From Chitinophaga polysaccharea (GTDB taxonomy: Bacteria > Bacteroidota > Bacteroidia > Chitinophagales > Chitinophagaceae), in the NCBI RefSeq assembly GCF_902150045.1, contig NZ_CABFVU010000001.1:496001-560000 (forward strand): 64,000 nucleotides of DNA. Direction: 5' to 3'. Position numbers and translations under genes: made by a program. The notes beneath the pieces were generated by a model. That model did no database searches, was not told the origin of the DNA, and was given only the letters and a program-made list of their open reading frames with translations. Each line of letters starts with the position of its first letter. Position 1 is the stretch's first letter. Positions 46,306 to 51,431 of the stretch are shown piece after piece.

Positions 46306-47322
46306 TTATCTGATCATAACGGTGTCTTTGTTGATCTGGAAACGGAAAGGAGTGGTGAATTGCAGCGAGGTGAGGGCCTGCTGAATGCTTTCGTTGGAAA
46401 ACTCCCCACTCATTAACTGGTTGTGCAGACTATCGTTTTCTACAATGATCCTTATATTATACCATCTTTCCATTTTCCTGATAACATCATCAAAAGGCTC
46501 TTTTTTGAAAGACAAGCGGTTGTATACCCAGGCAGTTTCCGGGGCTTCCATTTCAGCTACTTTTTTTATGGTTATTGGCGGTGCTGCTGCTTTGTTTGGA
46601 TAGATCTTCTGGCTGAGGGAGAACTTTTCCAGTGGTTTCAGGATCACTGTTTCCCGGCCTGGAACGGCAACTGATATTTTCCCGCTAACCAGTGTCGCCT
46701 CTGCCAGCAGGTCTTCCGCATAGGCCTTTACATTAAAGCGGGTGCCCAGCACGGTAATTTTCATGTTGCGGGTATGTACGATCAGTGGATGTTCTGCCGC
46801 TCCGCTTACTTCAAAATAAGCTTCCCCTACAAGCGTTACCTCCCGTTTGCCATTCAAAAAACCATCTGCATACGTTAATTTACTGCCCGCGTTCAGGCTC
46901 ACCTTTGTGCCATCCGGCAATTCTATTTTTGTTTTGCTGCCTGGGCGGGTACTTACCTGGTTTTGGTGGGCGAGTATGGCAGGTGGCTGTTTATGGCCCT
47001 GCCATAGCCAGAACAGCGCGCCAAGTACAGCGGCGGCGGCCAGCCATGGAATTTCCCGCAGCCGGCGTTTTGCCGGCCGCCCCATCTGTGCACTTACCTT
47101 TTTCCAGCCCTTGTCCCGCATTTCCTGTCCTGCTTCCACTTCCACAAACGTGGTGTCGGCCGGCTGCAGAGCCGCCATCAGGGCCTCCAGCCCATCCGCC
47201 TCCCCATGCAACTGCTGCAATGCCTGCAATTCCGCCAGCTCTTCACTGCTGGCATCACCGGAAATCTTTTTGCCAAGTAAAATCAATAGTCTTTCAGGAA
47301 GCATGAAAATGAGTATCTGCAT
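46306..47322 (-). CDS. FecR-family anti-sigma factor (arabinofuranoside locus)
   Basis: 338 residues from the ATG at 47322, chosen because an AAAGG ribosome site lies ten bases upstream and because the open frame further up overlaps the sigma gene; an ATG at 47304 (MLPERLLILLGKK) is an alternative. Cytoplasmic helices (about 1-95), a membrane span (IPWLAAAAVLGALFWLW), a FecR domain (RPGSKTKIELPDGTKVSLNA; VTLVGEAYFEVSGAAEHPLI), and a DUF4974-type end (FKKEPFDDVIRKMERWYNIR). It relays the signal from the STN domain of SusC to the sigma factor. Confidence 0.92.
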   Translation of the reverse strand: MQILIFMLPERLLILLGKKISGDASSEELAELQALQQLHGEADGLEALMAALQPADTTFVEVEAGQEMRDKGWKKVSAQMGRPAKRRLREIPWLAAAAVLGALFWLWQGHKQPPAILAHQNQVSTRPGSKTKIELPDGTKVSLNAGSKLTYADGFLNGKREVTLVGEAYFEVSGAAEHPLIVHTRNMKITVLGTRFNVKAYAEDLLAEATLVSGKISVAVPGRETVILKPLEKFSLSQKIYPNKAAAPPITIKKVAEMEAPETAWVYNRLSFKKEPFDDVIRKMERWYNIRIIVENDSLHNQLMSGEFSNESIQQALTSLQFTTPFRFQINKDTVMIR

Positions 47323-47371
47323 AGAAGACACACCTTTCCTGCTTTTACCCTGAAAAGCACGCAAACTTTTT

Positions 47372-47923
47372 TTAAGATTGTTGGGATCTGATATGTTCCA
47401 GTACCTCCGATAAACGACGCAACGCAATCGTCATCTGGGTTTCGACCGTTTTTACCGAAATATCCAGCAGCTCCGCCACCTCACGGTACCGGAGGCCATC
47501 TTCCTTCACGAGCTTGAAGATGAGTTTACATTTGGGGGGTAACTGATCAATGCTGCGGGTAATCATCCCTATAAATTCCTTTGAAATAGATAAACGCTCA
47601 GGAGAGAGCTCAAAACGGATATGTGCCGCGCTTATCTGGTCCAGGTCAATAAACTGATGCAGGCTACGCAGGTAATTACTGGCGCCATTCCTGGCAGATC
47701 TTAACAAGTAAGCCCTTAAATGCCTGATGCCGGCAAGCGTTTCGCGTTGTTGCCATAATTTGACAAAAATATCGTTGACGATTTCCTCCGCAGGTGGTTT
47801 GTCACGGATAATGGAGTAAACGAAATGAAATACAGGGAGCGCATGATGGTTATACAACCACTCAAATGCGGCTTCATCGGCAAAACTGGCTACGCGCTGC
47901 TTGCAGTGCTCTTCTGTCATCAT
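47372..47923 (-). CDS. ECF RNA polymerase sigma factor (arabinofuranoside locus)
   Basis: 183 residues (start at 47923, or 47920). Region 2: FHFVYSIIRDKPPAEEIVNDIFVKLW; region 4: LPPKCKLIFKLVKEDGLRYREVAELLDISVKTVETQ. The architecture matches sigma factors that head SusCD loci. A TACATTTG box lies about 47 bases upstream. The gene begins the leftward order sigma, FecR, SusC, SusD, GH127. Confidence 0.93.
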   Translation of the reverse strand: MMTEEHCKQRVASFADEAAFEWLYNHHALPVFHFVYSIIRDKPPAEEIVNDIFVKLWQQRETLAGIRHLRAYLLRSARNGASNYLRSLHQFIDLDQISAAHIRFELSPERLSISKEFIGMITRSIDQLPPKCKLIFKLVKEDGLRYREVAELLDISVKTVETQMTIALRRLSEVLEHIRSQQS

Positions 47924-48012: not shown

Positions 48013-48342
48013 TCATTCCAAAAAATAATCCAGCCCTATCTTCCCTCCACCATATATAAACAGGGCAAACAACATAATTAAATAATATAAAGGGATCTCA
48101 AACCCATTATCTCCTGCTGCAAAACCATTGCTCCAATGCACTGTTGCAATGGCCACCAGGTAAGCGCTCACATACGGCAACGGCATATGCAGTTGCACAA
48201 ACCAATCACCAATACTATGTATGTCGCTCCATTTCATTTTTGCCGGCAGGTAAAACCCATACGCCAGCACCAGCCGCATAAACAGCAGCGGAATATCCCT
48301 GCACGCCTGCAAACGGCGTGCTAATACAGCGTAGGTACGCAT
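48013..48342 (-). CDS. hvfX: DoxX-family membrane protein of the Hvf operon, apparently shortened inside
   Basis: 109 residues. The N-terminal span and loop (FMRLVLAYGFYLPAKMKWSD, then GDWFVQLHMPLPYVSAYLVA) and the C-terminal part (VHWSNGFAAGDNGFEIPLYY, then LIMLFALFIYGGGKIGLDYF) match DoxX proteins that accompany MNIO maturases in Bacteroidota. In such proteins, as I recall them, about 30 residues with a transmembrane helix (LGVVLLxLGLxTRxxSIPL-type) lie between AYLVA and the VHWSNGF segment; here the two abut in frame. So only about three of four spans remain. It is the last gene of the operon, three bases after the DUF2063 gene. It may be non-functional. Confidence 0.75.
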   Translation of the reverse strand: MRTYAVLARRLQACRDIPLLFMRLVLAYGFYLPAKMKWSDIHSIGDWFVQLHMPLPYVSAYLVAIATVHWSNGFAAGDNGFEIPLYYLIMLFALFIYGGGKIGLDYFLE

Positions 48343-48345
48343 ACG

Positions 48346-49095
48346 TTATGATTGAAAACCCAGCACGAAATGCAGTTCCTGCATGTGCTTTAAAAAAGCA
48401 ATTGAATCCAGCTCCAGTGTATCCGTTTGCGTTATATTCAGCTCAGGAGCATAATCCAGTATATCCCTTACCGTTATACCCATTGCCAGTTGCTCGGTTA
48501 AGAAAGCCAGCCAGGGCGACAGGTCCGTAAATTCCACATGCCCGGTTTCCGGGTGCCGGAACAACAGTACAAAATAAACGCCCTTATTTTTCAGTAATTC
48601 CTTTGGTTTGGCCAACAGGTGAACGGGATAACTGAAACGCAGCAACCTGTACTCAGGATTCAGCACCAACGGCGTTTCCAGCCAGTTGCCGGAAAGGCTG
48701 TAAGCGGGCGCAGGTATATCTTCCATATTATACACTTCCATTTCAGCCCATTCAAAGGCAAGGAGGTCGTTGAGGAAAGGAAGAGCGTAAACTTCTTCCC
48801 AGTTATGCTCTACCGCGTAGGTATAAAACTCCAGGGGGAGCTTCCATACCTGGTACGACCGGCACGCATGCCTGGAAAAAAATTCCTTCACCATTTTATT
48901 CCATTTCGTTGCAGGAATATGCCGGAACGCGATGGGAAACGCATGCTCCATGGTATCATGGATCATGTTAAATACCAGCTGCCGGTAGTGCTTCAGCCGC
49001 TGCGGCTTTACGCCAGGCAGCTTTACTTTTTCACCGGTTCTGCAATAAGCAGAAAAAGTTTGCTGGATATGATAGGTGTCAGGCAACAAGTTCAT
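48346..49095 (-). CDS. hvfC: DUF2063-type RiPP maturation partner (HvfC/BufC-like)
   Basis: 249 residues. The N-terminal DUF2063 domain contains LKHYRQLVFNMIHDTMEHAFPIA and KWNKMVKEFFSRHACRSYQV. The C-terminal part has FVLLFRHPETGHVEFTDLSPWLAFL and an end helix rich in Leu/Asp. In characterised Hvf and bufferin operons this protein binds the DUF692 enzyme and presents the precursor. The gene overlaps the 3' end of hvfB by 17 bases, which implies translational coupling and a complex in fixed ratio. Confidence 0.87.
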   Translation of the reverse strand: MNLLPDTYHIQQTFSAYCRTGEKVKLPGVKPQRLKHYRQLVFNMIHDTMEHAFPIAFRHIPATKWNKMVKEFFSRHACRSYQVWKLPLEFYTYAVEHNWEEVYALPFLNDLLAFEWAEMEVYNMEDIPAPAYSLSGNWLETPLVLNPEYRLLRFSYPVHLLAKPKELLKNKGVYFVLLFRHPETGHVEFTDLSPWLAFLTEQLAMGITVRDILDYAPELNITQTDTLELDSIAFLKHMQELHFVLGFQS

Positions 49096-49906
49096 CTTTC
49101 AAATTCCATTGTTTGTGACAAATGTTTTTCAGCTTCGTTAATTCACCCTGCAACTCCGCCATTTCCGGGATATTAAAATCCCTTTCCAGCAGAACCGGTA
49201 CCGGGTGCAGGCGCTGGATCGTCCATTCAAACAGATCGTATACCGGGTCTATGATCGGTTCCCCATGGGTATCAATAATGAGGTCCGGCGCTACCTGCTC
49301 ATGACCGGCCATATGTATATAAGCTACTTTATCGAGGGGGAGTTGCTGTATAAACGCTTTGGCATCGTACCGGTGATTAAAAGCATTTACATAGATGTTA
49401 TTCACATCCAGCAGCAGCTGGCAACCGGATTGCTTTACCACTTCATTGATAAAATCCACTTCGCTCATCTCTGCGGCAACCGGTGTGTAATAAGACACAA
49501 TTTCCATTACCAGCGGCCGTTGCAGGTAATCCTGCACCTGTTGTATGCGGCTGGCAATATGCTTTACAGCATCCATCCGGAAAGGAATGGGGAGCAGGTC
49601 GTACATATGTGCATTATCACATTTGGAGTAGCTGAGATGCTCTGAATAGATCTGCACGTTATACTCCCTGAGAAACGTTTTTATATATTGCAGGAACGGC
49701 TTGTCCAGCTCCTCCGGGCTACCGATAGACAATGAGAGACCGTGGCACAGCACCGGATATTTTTCCACTACTCTGTGCAATACCTTCTTCCAGTACCCAC
49801 CGATGTTCATCCAGTTCTCAGGAGCAAACTCGATAAAGTCGGGCCGGATATGCTCACCGCTGATCATTTCTTCCGCAAATTCCCTGCGAAAACCTACACC
49901 TACCAT
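49079..49906 (-). CDS. hvfB: DUF692/MNIO multinuclear iron enzyme, RiPP maturase (HvfB/BufB-like)
   Basis: 275 residues from the ATG at 49906, the start that gives the usual beginning MVGVGFRREFAEEMI; the open frame runs further up through a hairpin. TIM-barrel metal-site motifs are present: DFIEFAPENWMN, HGLSLSIGSPEELD, YSEHLSYSKCDN, LLDVNNIYVNAFNH, YIHMAGHEQVAPD and DTHGEPIIDPVYDLFEW. MNIO enzymes oxidise cysteine in precursor peptides; with EGKCG precursors the known product is an oxazolone-thioamide pair that binds copper. The neighbouring precursor carries exactly that motif. Confidence 0.93.
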   Translation of the reverse strand: MVGVGFRREFAEEMISGEHIRPDFIEFAPENWMNIGGYWKKVLHRVVEKYPVLCHGLSLSIGSPEELDKPFLQYIKTFLREYNVQIYSEHLSYSKCDNAHMYDLLPIPFRMDAVKHIASRIQQVQDYLQRPLVMEIVSYYTPVAAEMSEVDFINEVVKQSGCQLLLDVNNIYVNAFNHRYDAKAFIQQLPLDKVAYIHMAGHEQVAPDLIIDTHGEPIIDPVYDLFEWTIQRLHPVPVLLERDFNIPEMAELQGELTKLKNICHKQWNLKDELVA

Positions 49907-49933
49907 GACTATACGTTTTAGGAGGTTAAGATA

Positions 49934-49976
49934 AAAGTAAAGACCGGCTTGTGCGTACCTCACCGGCCTTTACTTT
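49934..49976 (-). promoter_or_regulatory. Hairpin between the precursor gene and the maturase gene
   Basis: AAAGTAAAGACCGG (49934-49947) and CCGGCCTTTACTTT (49963-49976) form a 14-base stem with one G-U pair in the leftward RNA, followed by a U-rich stretch. It starts ten bases after the precursor stop. Such intercistronic hairpins often end part of the transcripts, so that the precursor is made in excess over the enzyme; they may also protect the 3' end of the precursor RNA. Confidence 0.75.
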
Positions 49977-49985
49977 ACCTGGAAA

Positions 49986-50324
49986 TTAATTACCGGATTT
50001 GGTGGTGTCTTTTTTATGCTTGTCTCCTTTCTTACCTTTTTTATCACCACATTTTCCTTCACCGCATTTTCCCTGTCCGCATTTGCCTTCTTTTGACTTA
50101 CCGGCAGATGCGCTGTCTTTTTTTGCGCCGCAGGCCAGTTCAATAGCGTTGGCTGTATTATCTGAAGCGCCGGTTAATGCGTTTCTCACCGCAGCGCCGG
50201 AACCGAGGTTAGTATAGCCTGCTGGTTTTGCATTTACCTGTAATGCAGCCATACCAAGGATAGCACCGGCAACAAGAGAGCCGGAAAAAAGTACTTTTTT
50301 GCTGATAGGATTGTTGTTTTTCAT
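49986..50324 (-). CDS. hvfA: HvfA/bufferin-like metal-binding RiPP precursor with EGKCG repeats
   Basis: 112 residues. A long signal sequence (about 1-32: VLFSGSLVAGAILGMAALQVNA) precedes a middle leader region (GYTNLGSGAAVRNALTG...ELACGAKK) and a core with EGKCG-QGKCG-EGKCG in tandem at about 79-93. The tail is very rich in Lys, Asp and Gly. Four cysteines are present: one in LACG and three in KCG repeats. In the Hvf system of Haemophilus the EGKCG cysteines become copper-binding oxazolone-thioamide groups. The product would be exported across the inner membrane and sequester copper in the periplasm. First structural gene after the sigma/anti-sigma pair. Confidence 0.9.
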   Translation of the reverse strand: MKNNNPISKKVLFSGSLVAGAILGMAALQVNAKPAGYTNLGSGAAVRNALTGASDNTANAIELACGAKKDSASAGKSKEGKCGQGKCGEGKCGDKKGKKGDKHKKDTTKSGN

Positions 50325-50407
50325 CTTTTTAAATTTAAAAAACTGGTGAAAAAATATGTATTTGAGAGGTAGACGTGGTGATTAAAGAATCCTTACAGGA
50401 AATTCAA

Positions 50408-50671
50408 TTATTTTTCCATTTCCGCTGCTATCATCACCTCCCACTGCCGTTTCACGGATTCATCCAATGCAGCATCTTCAGCCGCCATCCAGCGCATGTG
50501 TGCGTCTATGGCCCTGCTTTGTTTCACATACCGCCGGCAGAAGTGGCAATATAACAGGTGAAACTGCAATCCTATGCGCTGCCACCGGGACAACGGTTGC
50601 TGTAGTTGTTTTTCCGCCAGCAGGGTGGCTTCTTTACAACAAGGCAGTAAAGTATGTAAGTGATGTTGCAT
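50408..50671 (-). CDS. Small zinc-finger-like anti-sigma factor of the Hvf operon
   Basis: 87 residues, no leader. It shows CCKEATLLAEKQLQQPLSRW followed by FHLLYCHFCRRYVKQS, the His-x3-Cys-x2-Cys pattern of ZAS-type anti-sigma factors common in Bacteroidota. It lacks a membrane span, so it would be a cytosolic, possibly metal- or redox-responsive, inhibitor. The gene starts one base after the stop of the sigma gene, so the two are co-translated. Confidence 0.8.
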   Translation of the reverse strand: MQHHLHTLLPCCKEATLLAEKQLQQPLSRWQRIGLQFHLLYCHFCRRYVKQSRAIDAHMRWMAAEDAALDESVKRQWEVMIAAEMEK

Positions 50672-50672
50672 G

Positions 50673-51281
50673 TCAGTTACTGAACCAGTTTTTTTCCAGG
50701 CAGGCCCTTAATTGTAATTTGGCCCGGTGAATAATAACCCAGTAGTTGGACGTAGTGATCGCCATATCCTTACAGATGTCTGCCGATTTTTTTTCTTCCA
50801 GATATTTCTGCTGAAAGATGGTTTTTCCTATGCCGCTCAGTTTAGCTATACAGGTGCGTAAGATCCTGGAAAATTCCCGCTGTTCTGATGGGTCGTTAAT
50901 GTCCTGCTTCCAGGCTTTGGGGGCCATTTCCCGGCGCCAGTGCCCTTTTTTGTCAAAATAGATATCGTGTGGATCAGGATCGTTGCTATGCGCCGTTATA
51001 CTATCTAATGTTAAAACAGTTTTGCCGGACTTACGGTAGTGGTCCGTTATTTTATTTTTCAGGATGGCAGTCAGCCAGGTCTTCTCGCTGCTATCTCCGC
51101 GGAAGCCGGACATAGCCTGCAACCCGCTGAGGAAGGTATCCTGTACCAGGTCCTGTGCCAGTACGGTATCTGGTACTTTGCTACACGCAAATTTAAATAA
51201 ATCTTCCGCGTATAACTTCACCCATTCTTTTGGATTACAGGTCGTCATTGGTACCGTTATATGAAAAGCCTCTGTCTGCAT
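50673..51281 (-). CDS. ECF-like sigma factor heading the Hvf RiPP operon
   Basis: 202 residues. Region 2: LYAEDLFKFACSKVPDTVLA and QDLVQDTFLSGLQAM, then RGDSSEKTWLTAILKNKITDHYRKS; region 4: LSGIGKTIFQQKYLEEKKSADICKDMAITTSNYWVIIHRAKLQLRA. A Bacteroidota-specific ECF type usually followed by a short anti-sigma gene, as here. It probably drives the precursor and maturation genes downstream; in Caulobacter a bufferin operon is controlled by the ECF factor SigF, so such coupling has a precedent. Confidence 0.92.
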   Translation of the reverse strand: MQTEAFHITVPMTTCNPKEWVKLYAEDLFKFACSKVPDTVLAQDLVQDTFLSGLQAMSGFRGDSSEKTWLTAILKNKITDHYRKSGKTVLTLDSITAHSNDPDPHDIYFDKKGHWRREMAPKAWKQDINDPSEQREFSRILRTCIAKLSGIGKTIFQQKYLEEKKSADICKDMAITTSNYWVIIHRAKLQLRACLEKNWFSN

Positions 51282-51431
51282 AGCGTGTTTTTACGTATAT
51301 AGTAGAAAGCTTACGGAAATTTACCTGTTTTAGTTTTCCCGGCGACCCAAAAAAATGTTAAAGGGGGATAACCGGTAGATACCCGATGGTAAATGGTGCG
51401 GAACCGTTGTCTACTATTCAGCATTTTATCC

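Follow-up and report, generated by a model that had tools for sequence, protein, structure and literature searches.

The window analysed here is a 64-kb stretch of the 7.6-Mb genome of a soil bacterium, a Chitinophaga. On its minus strand, from position 51281 to 48013, lie genes for an extracytoplasmic function (ECF) sigma factor, a small anti-sigma factor, a peptide precursor, an MNIO enzyme, a DUF2063 protein and a DoxX protein (Table 1). An initial annotation had described a leftward operon of six genes, and all six open reading frames (ORFs) are present on that strand within this span. Sequence evidence, on which the whole analysis rests, supports reading the locus as an HvfABCX-type (oxazolin) operon for a ribosomally synthesised and post-translationally modified peptide (RiPP), led by genes for the sigma factor and a soluble anti-sigma factor of the zinc (ZAS) type. 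Our subject is the control of this operon, which appears to involve one motif that occurs both ahead of the precursor gene and inside the sigma factor gene. L-numbers denote loci and G-numbers the genomes compared.

The operon, its products and its distribution

The tight gene spacing of the initial annotation holds for the sigma and anti-sigma genes (1 nt apart), the MNIO and DUF2063 genes (17-nt overlap) and the DUF2063 and DoxX genes (3 nt), but not around the precursor gene, which is preceded by 83 nt and followed by 79 nt up to the MNIO start codon at 49906. This ATG is a likelier start than 49963. The MNIO protein matches PF05114 with 337 bits, passes the HvfB model NF003818 (388.8 bits, cut-off 360) and can be aligned along its length with 3bww, a DUF692 protein of solved structure (E 6e-69); conserved His, Glu, Asp and Asn positions in this alignment are what we take to be metal ligands. 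The DUF2063 protein is above the cut-offs of PF09836 and PF22106, stays below that of the HvfC model NF050145 (122.6 bits, cut-off 142) and matches NGO1945 (3dee) with E 1e-4. For the DoxX protein the PF07681 score of 23.8 bits is just over the cut-off of 23.6, and the HvfX model NF050144 gives 60.7 bits, below 80. This protein has 109 residues versus at least 139 in the 27 relatives listed. The difference is an in-frame deletion of 90 bp, or 30 residues, with its junction near 48157, and the deleted part corresponds to about one membrane helix.

The precursor core reads EGKCG-QGKCG-EGKCG with a further ACG at Cys65, in agreement with the three GKCG units and one extra CG cysteine described earlier, and a signal peptide was assigned by eye. 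Scores against the HvfA domain model NF050137 (14.3 bits, cut-off 19.5) and against NF050188 (10.3 bits, cut-off 95) are below cut-off. The Lys/Asp-rich tail had been called unusual, but Lys-rich tails are common among the precursors of relatives. By analogy, the core cysteines are expected to be modified to 5-thiooxazole; the oxazolone-thioamide chemistry first proposed is outdated, as the Haemophilus authors state that they and others now assign the modification as 5-thiooxazole (PMC13419390). Membership in the Buf1/NrsF class was considered and rejected: at E 1 the precursor has no Pfam match (DUF2282) and the anti-sigma protein no NrsF match.

The anti-sigma protein matches NF052368 with 50.5 bits (cut-off 50) and fits the pattern Cys-X23-26-His-X3-Cys-X2-Cys. 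It has no membrane helix, its highest 19-residue hydropathy being 0.36, and its AlphaFold2 model consists of four helices (predicted local distance difference test score 89.3). The ZAS motif is present in all 39 anti-sigma proteins scanned, related ones without MNIO linkage included, and Cys12, His38, Cys42 and Cys45 are invariant in 29 sequences. Because this motif is present, it is plausible that the small soluble protein itself senses the signal, a role that had already been proposed for it. The sigma protein is above the cut-offs of PF04542 (51.2 bits) and PF08281 (26.6 bits), i.e. sigma-70 regions 2 and 4, and its translation may start at the second methionine (MTTCNP). Against TIGR02943 it scores 152.3 bits, under the curated cut-off of 162.2, and no named subfamily was assigned.

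Table 1 Features of the operon and its upstream region in the window
Feature	Position	Strand	Basis
ECF sigma factor gene, 202 codons	50673..51281	-	PF04542 and PF08281 over cut-off; kept in relatives
Putative internal promoter TGTAAGG-N15-CGTCCA in the sigma helix-turn-helix codons, facing the anti-sigma gene	50747..50774	-	One of two matches in the window; codon lock
Soluble ZAS anti-sigma factor gene, 87 codons	50408..50671	-	NF052368; Cys12-X25-His38-X3-Cys42-X2-Cys45
Putative promoter TGTAAGG-N15-CGTCTA of the precursor gene and following genes	50370..50397	-	Motif scan
EGKCG-type precursor gene (HvfA-like), 112 codons	49986..50324	-	ORF, motif reading, neighbours in relatives
MNIO gene (HvfB family)	49079..49906, open frame back to 49963	-	NF003818; 3bww alignment
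HvfC-like DUF2063 partner gene	48346..49095	-	PF09836, PF22106; 3dee
DoxX/HvfX-like gene with 90-bp in-frame deletion	48013..48342	-	PF07681; comparison with relatives
Conserved stretch 5' of the sigma gene, no TGTMAGG-type site	51300..51370	-	By eye and site scan

An HvfB-type MNIO at 63% identity or more is encoded in 36 of 79 genomes of the genus, our own included, and the nearest named relatives by MNIO are Chitinophaga species. An EGKCG-type precursor gene adjoins the MNIO gene in 38 of 38 loci (36 of the genus and two from other genera of the family), and the same examination found none beside remote MNIOs (0/6 loci). The MNIO in 36 of 79 genomes and the constant precursor gene beside it make the operon more than a chance arrangement. 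The original assignment to the Hvf/oxazolin type is supported. The sigma gene is intact in 18 of the 38 loci, degenerate in one and absent from 19, absence meaning that tblastn with the window protein gave no match at E 0.01 within about 10 kb. doxX was found in 28 of the 38; G136 and nine other loci have none beside the operon. In the precursors, the glycine after the core cysteines is replaced (KCS, KCA, KCT or KCV, read by eye) in 10 of the 19 loci without a sigma gene (L062-L064, L066-L068, L070-L072 and L075) and in none of the 18 with one; an altered core motif seems to accompany absence of the sigma gene through loss.

Named genomes, when scanned, yielded 54 loci. They belong to Chitinophaga and other Bacteroidota, to an Ignavibacteria metagenome-assembled genome (MAG), and to some Pseudomonadota and other MAGs. 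Loci of Chitinophaga genomes already in the set, including the sigma-bearing L124 and L127, were not recounted, and L110 was excluded (sigma match of 17 bits). Of the 27 loci remaining among L107-L137, 16, from outside Chitinophaga, have a linked sigma gene and in 11 none was found, several of these loci being on short contigs. Among 395 genomes drawn evenly from the phylum, the HvfB model matched in 26 and exceeded its cut-off in seven, our own included. With loci from several groups and so few genomes over the cut-off, the operon is widespread but uncommon. Our own genome also encodes a second, distant MNIO of about 317 residues (G000:C1:2620643-2621452; L046 6620-7573), followed by a gene for 217 residues that may be its partner, and MNIOs resembling it at 33-36% identity occur in several sister genomes.

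A motif ahead of the precursor gene and inside the sigma factor gene

The motif TGTAAGG-N15-CGTCTA has exactly two matches in the window, where 0.08 would be expected at up to one mismatch. One lies before the precursor gene. The other, at 50774-50747, covers sigma codons 170-179 (Cys-Lys-Asp-Met-Ala-Ile-Thr-Thr-Ser-Asn) and stands about 100 nt ahead of the anti-sigma ATG.

Codon use at the internal site was counted in 34 oxazolin-linked sigma genes, from which L051, with its degenerate sigma gene, was excluded. Lys171 is AAG in 28 of 29 cases versus 155 of 562 other lysines, and Cys170 is TGT in 33/34 versus 53/97. Ser178 is TCN in 31/31 (251/435 elsewhere), while residue 177 has an NCG codon in 30/33 (224/1219 elsewhere). 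In an 18-gene set, motif codons rank 1, 2 and 4 of 111 columns for departure from background use. The full internal motif is found in 28 of the 34 linked sigma genes and in none of seven sigma genes without MNIO linkage. In a later sample 12 loci were fetched, of which the six over the HvfB cut-off were counted: these six further genomes (395 searched) include four with a linked sigma gene, and all four carry both sites.

The precursor site reads TGTAAGG-N15-CGTCTA, or TGTCAGG-N15-CGNCTA in one group, in sigma-bearing loci. With up to one mismatch it is present in 15 of the 18 loci with an intact sigma gene versus two of the 19 without (Fisher p 1e-5; a weakness of the case is that all p-values given here treat related sequences as independent). 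At the locus with the degenerate sigma gene the site has three mismatches, and in G136, which is one of the two sigma-less exceptions, its -10 letters are changed. The link between the sigma/anti-sigma pair and the peptide genes, proposed at the outset, is thus supported by a shared promoter-like motif that tracks the sigma gene. Moreover, related sigma genes without MNIO linkage have TGTAAGG-N15-CGACT 10-96 nt 5' of their own start in six of seven cases, which speaks for the proposed specificity. Taken together, TGTAAGG-N15-CGTCTA is likely the target promoter of the operon's sigma factor, and the simplest reading of the internal site is that it is probably a sigma-dependent promoter of the anti-sigma gene.

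No site with fewer than three mismatches lies 5' of the operon-linked sigma genes (19/19 loci). An autoregulated promoter at this place was considered because the CCGTAAGC block looked similar, and was dropped on this count. The stretch 51300-51370, from TTTAACATTTTTTTGGG to CCGTAAGCTTTCTAC, is strongly kept among close relatives but differs from the sigma motif. Separately, L281 and L283 have TGTAAGG...CGACT motif-like sites near HvfB-like MNIOs that score under the family cut-off.

Since the internal site overlaps the sigma factor's helix-turn-helix codons, protein and promoter would constrain each other. The codons of the factor's own DNA-binding domain would then permanently hold its recognition site, and a single exchange there, from Lys171 AAG to the Gln171 CAG of some linked genes, would alter reader and site at once. 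Such an exchange may have steered TGTAAGG to TGTCAGG across the regulon, although we regard this as a tentative idea that is rather improbable as it stands. By a hand count, the fourth motif letter is the same in the sigma gene and the precursor site in all 22 loci in which both were found (A in 18, C in 4). Five of six CAG-type genomes have TGTCAGG sites, versus none of three AAG-type genomes. However, TGTAAGG stands beside TGTCAGG in G158 and G176, which limits the idea and weakens the perfect covariation of Lys/Gln with the -35 letters that had been entertained, and the C-type cases may be a single event.

A putative wider regulon and the proposed control

The strict pattern matches our own genome twice, at the precursor site and 67 nt 5' of a gene for an MsrB lipoprotein. 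Among msrB loci retrieved from 30 of the 79 genomes, a site with up to one mismatch precedes msrB in six of nine genomes with an intact sigma gene versus none of 21 others (p 1.4e-4), and in one genome msrA is preceded by the motif. G136, the nearest relative by MNIO identity, is without the sigma gene, the anti-sigma gene, doxX and the msrB site. A TGTCAGG site in G176 is followed by genes for a cytochrome-like membrane protein (by eye), a PF00174 molybdopterin oxidoreductase of the MsrP/YedY fold and MsrB, while a divergent TGTAAGG site precedes genes for a Met-rich secreted peptide and an AhpC/TSA protein; G158 has the two sites and the first gene as in G176, and an MsrB match at the corresponding place. 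Methionine sulfoxide reductases (Msr) with signal or lipoprotein leaders would thus be further targets in our own genome and in relatives, and the peptide would belong to an envelope stress regulon together with them.

Genus-wide, 24 of 63 strict matches are sigma-internal (9), before precursor genes (9) or before msrB or msrA (6). Another 21 are one recurrent, unrelated-looking sequence, TGTAAGGTCATTAATAGCTACCACGTCTA (L185 near 2360 and 20 other genomes), which is unchanged in 21 genomes of the genus and is probably a conserved sequence of another kind. L178 3808-6009 (G124:C19) holds a sigma/ZAS pair without MNIO linkage that is surrounded by motif sites: on the upstream side before a SnoaL-like gene and a gene for a Met-rich secreted protein, on the other side before a monooxygenase-like gene (all gene names by eye). 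Directly 3' of the operon in the window, 46306-47923 holds a second ECF sigma gene (TIGR02985, Bacteroidetes type) and a FecR-like gene (by eye), which form a separate system.

We consider it quite probable that the oxazolin operon is self-regulated in the following way. The ECF sigma factor would be held by the soluble ZAS anti-sigma factor and freed by a disturbance of the latter's Cys/His zinc site; an oxidant or electrophile is the likeliest cause, a thiophilic metal a possible one. Free sigma factor would read the site before the precursor gene, leading to production of the precursor, the MNIO, the DUF2063 protein and DoxX and to modification and export of the peptide; it would also read the site in the 3' end of its own gene, from which the anti-sigma gene but not the sigma gene would be transcribed. 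Effectors and inhibitor would thereby be made without a positive loop on the sigma factor, a negative feedback by which the response would shut itself off, and Msr genes would be transcribed as further targets. The regulon is probably a stress regulon of the oxidant type, as judged from related systems: in H. influenzae, expression of rpoE2 rises with HOCl and H2O2 (PMC7907618).

Several observations weigh against this proposal. The bare pattern is not enriched in the genus, with 63 matches versus about 109 for a reversed control; genome-wide counts were therefore dropped as evidence, and the case rests on the position of the sites. The precursor site is missing or weak in L069, L073 and L082 among the sigma-intact loci and present in L049 and L080 without a sigma gene, and of the 16 linked loci outside Chitinophaga, 7 have it by the strict pattern. 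Part of the internal motif is missing from six of the 34 linked sigma genes, and the msrB site is missing in G174, G180 and G166. L280, the only one of six sub-cut-off loci of the later sample to have a sigma gene, has it beside the precursor gene and without the motif. For the anti-sigma factor, a profile search found no credible PDB relative by sequence, and although PDB ranks 1-4 for the structural model are the zinc anti-sigma factors RsiW and RslA, their E values of 0.7-1.4 are weak. Because doxX is damaged, the operon may be decaying in the present strain. Finally, in N. meningitidis oxidative stimuli left sigE expression unchanged (PMC2893595).

The alternative that fares best, though we think it unlikely, concerns the signal and is in essence that of the initial annotation: copper or another thiophilic metal would displace zinc in the anti-sigma factor and induce a copper-buffering peptide. 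Copper is bound by oxazolin and by bufferins, the latter being of help under copper stress (PMC13419390, PMC12452194), and in Caulobacter two MNIO operons are controlled by SigF, a factor that responds to heavy metals (PMC3511200). Yet no copper transporter or oxidase was found among the motif-bearing genes looked at (exact matches only), and those with a clear role encode methionine sulfoxide reductases and a peroxiredoxin. Oxidant and metal may also converge on the same cysteines.

A further alternative, which we hold to be improbable, is that no internal promoter exists and that the locked codons reflect something else, for instance an mRNA element required to translate the anti-sigma gene, or conservation by chance within a helix that evolves slowly. 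The linked genes that lack part of the motif would fit this. However, the locked letters and their spacing are those of the precursor and msrB sites, nearby conserved codons are not locked alike (Lys164 is AAA in 19/19, Lys188 AAA in 17/25), and the unlinked relatives keep the amino acids of the helix without the motif letters. More improbable still, the sites could be promoters served by a different ECF factor with this specificity, e.g. an unlinked relative: within the genus, unlinked members of the sigma subfamily do have TGTAAGG-N15-CGACT sites, and G124 has motif sites around such a gene, but a sigma search of our own genome gives only the linked gene at E 1e-12, and the sites decay where the linked sigma gene is lost.

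Related systems and implications

The proposed control has a close counterpart in H. influenzae, where the ECF factor RpoE2 and the small cytoplasmic anti-sigma factor HrsE are induced by HOCl and H2O2 and control msrAB and a doxX operon (PMC7907618) that is, by gene content, hvf. An ECF factor, a small cytoplasmic ZAS anti-sigma factor and msr and hvf-type targets are common to both (PMC7907618, PMC13419390), and RpoE2 likewise hardly controls its own gene (PMC7907618). There, however, the genes of the pair are found close to msrAB and separate from the doxX operon, whereas here they head the operon, and the available text mentions no promoter inside the sigma gene (PMC7907618). The N. meningitidis SigE-MseR operon NMB2140-2145 also combines a sigma factor and a ZAS anti-sigma factor with a DoxX gene and three hypothetical genes (PMC2893595, PMC3240639). 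MseR shares the Cys-X25-His-X3-Cys-X2-Cys spacing (Cys4, His30; PMC2893595), and msrAB is again a second target, but sigma and anti-sigma genes stand at the other end of that operon, which is autoregulated. The NMB2140-2145 precursor is presumably of the bufferin type.

An internal promoter of the kind proposed is known from C. glutamicum, where a SigH-dependent promoter inside sigH transcribes rshA from starts 62 and 66 nt before its ATG, and where the authors propose that it allows quick shut-down (PMC3489674). Promoter letters and regulon differ there and no RiPP is involved; in Chitinophaga the site letters are locked into codons of the sigma factor's DNA-binding domain. In Caulobacter, the ECF factor SigF, paired with NrsF, controls MNIO operons and YedY (PMC3511200, PMC12452194), and its promoter GTAACC-N16-CGAA resembles GTAAGG-N15-CGTC (PMC3511200); unlike here, the regulator is a DUF1109/NrsF protein with six membrane segments and the precursors are of the DUF2282 type. 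According to the bufferin survey, Buf1 includes genes for a sigma factor and NrsF, and clusters with EGKCG precursors mostly consist of the core genes (PMC12452194). The SigF-NrsF set of Azospira suillum (MrpX, YedY1) acts against reactive chlorine and, as in G158 and G176, joins a Met-rich peptide to a methionine sulfoxide reductase (PMC5748585); its anti-sigma factor is of another type, and the available part of that report mentions no oxazolin (PMC5748585).

The operon type, ZAS control, the link between operon and Msr and internal anti-sigma promoters are thus each known already. In the literature available to us we found no description of the motif or of an intragenic promoter in an MNIO-linked sigma gene, nor, for Bacteroidota, of these features combined with a promoter locked into the codons of the sigma helix-turn-helix, and the papers found on the copper-binding peptide family hardly treat this phylum. 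The analysis ties this widespread family to a concrete regulon, with a motif and named targets (precursor, anti-sigma factor and msrB), and sister genomes show the system decaying. It suggests that oxazolin acts alongside the repair of oxidised methionine; Haemophilus already shows this pairing, as does Neisseria for a DoxX operon. If true, the internal promoter would predict feedback on the inhibitor only, and the sigma gene would offer a clear example from nature of a regulator gene in which the letters of the target site constrain the coding sequence.

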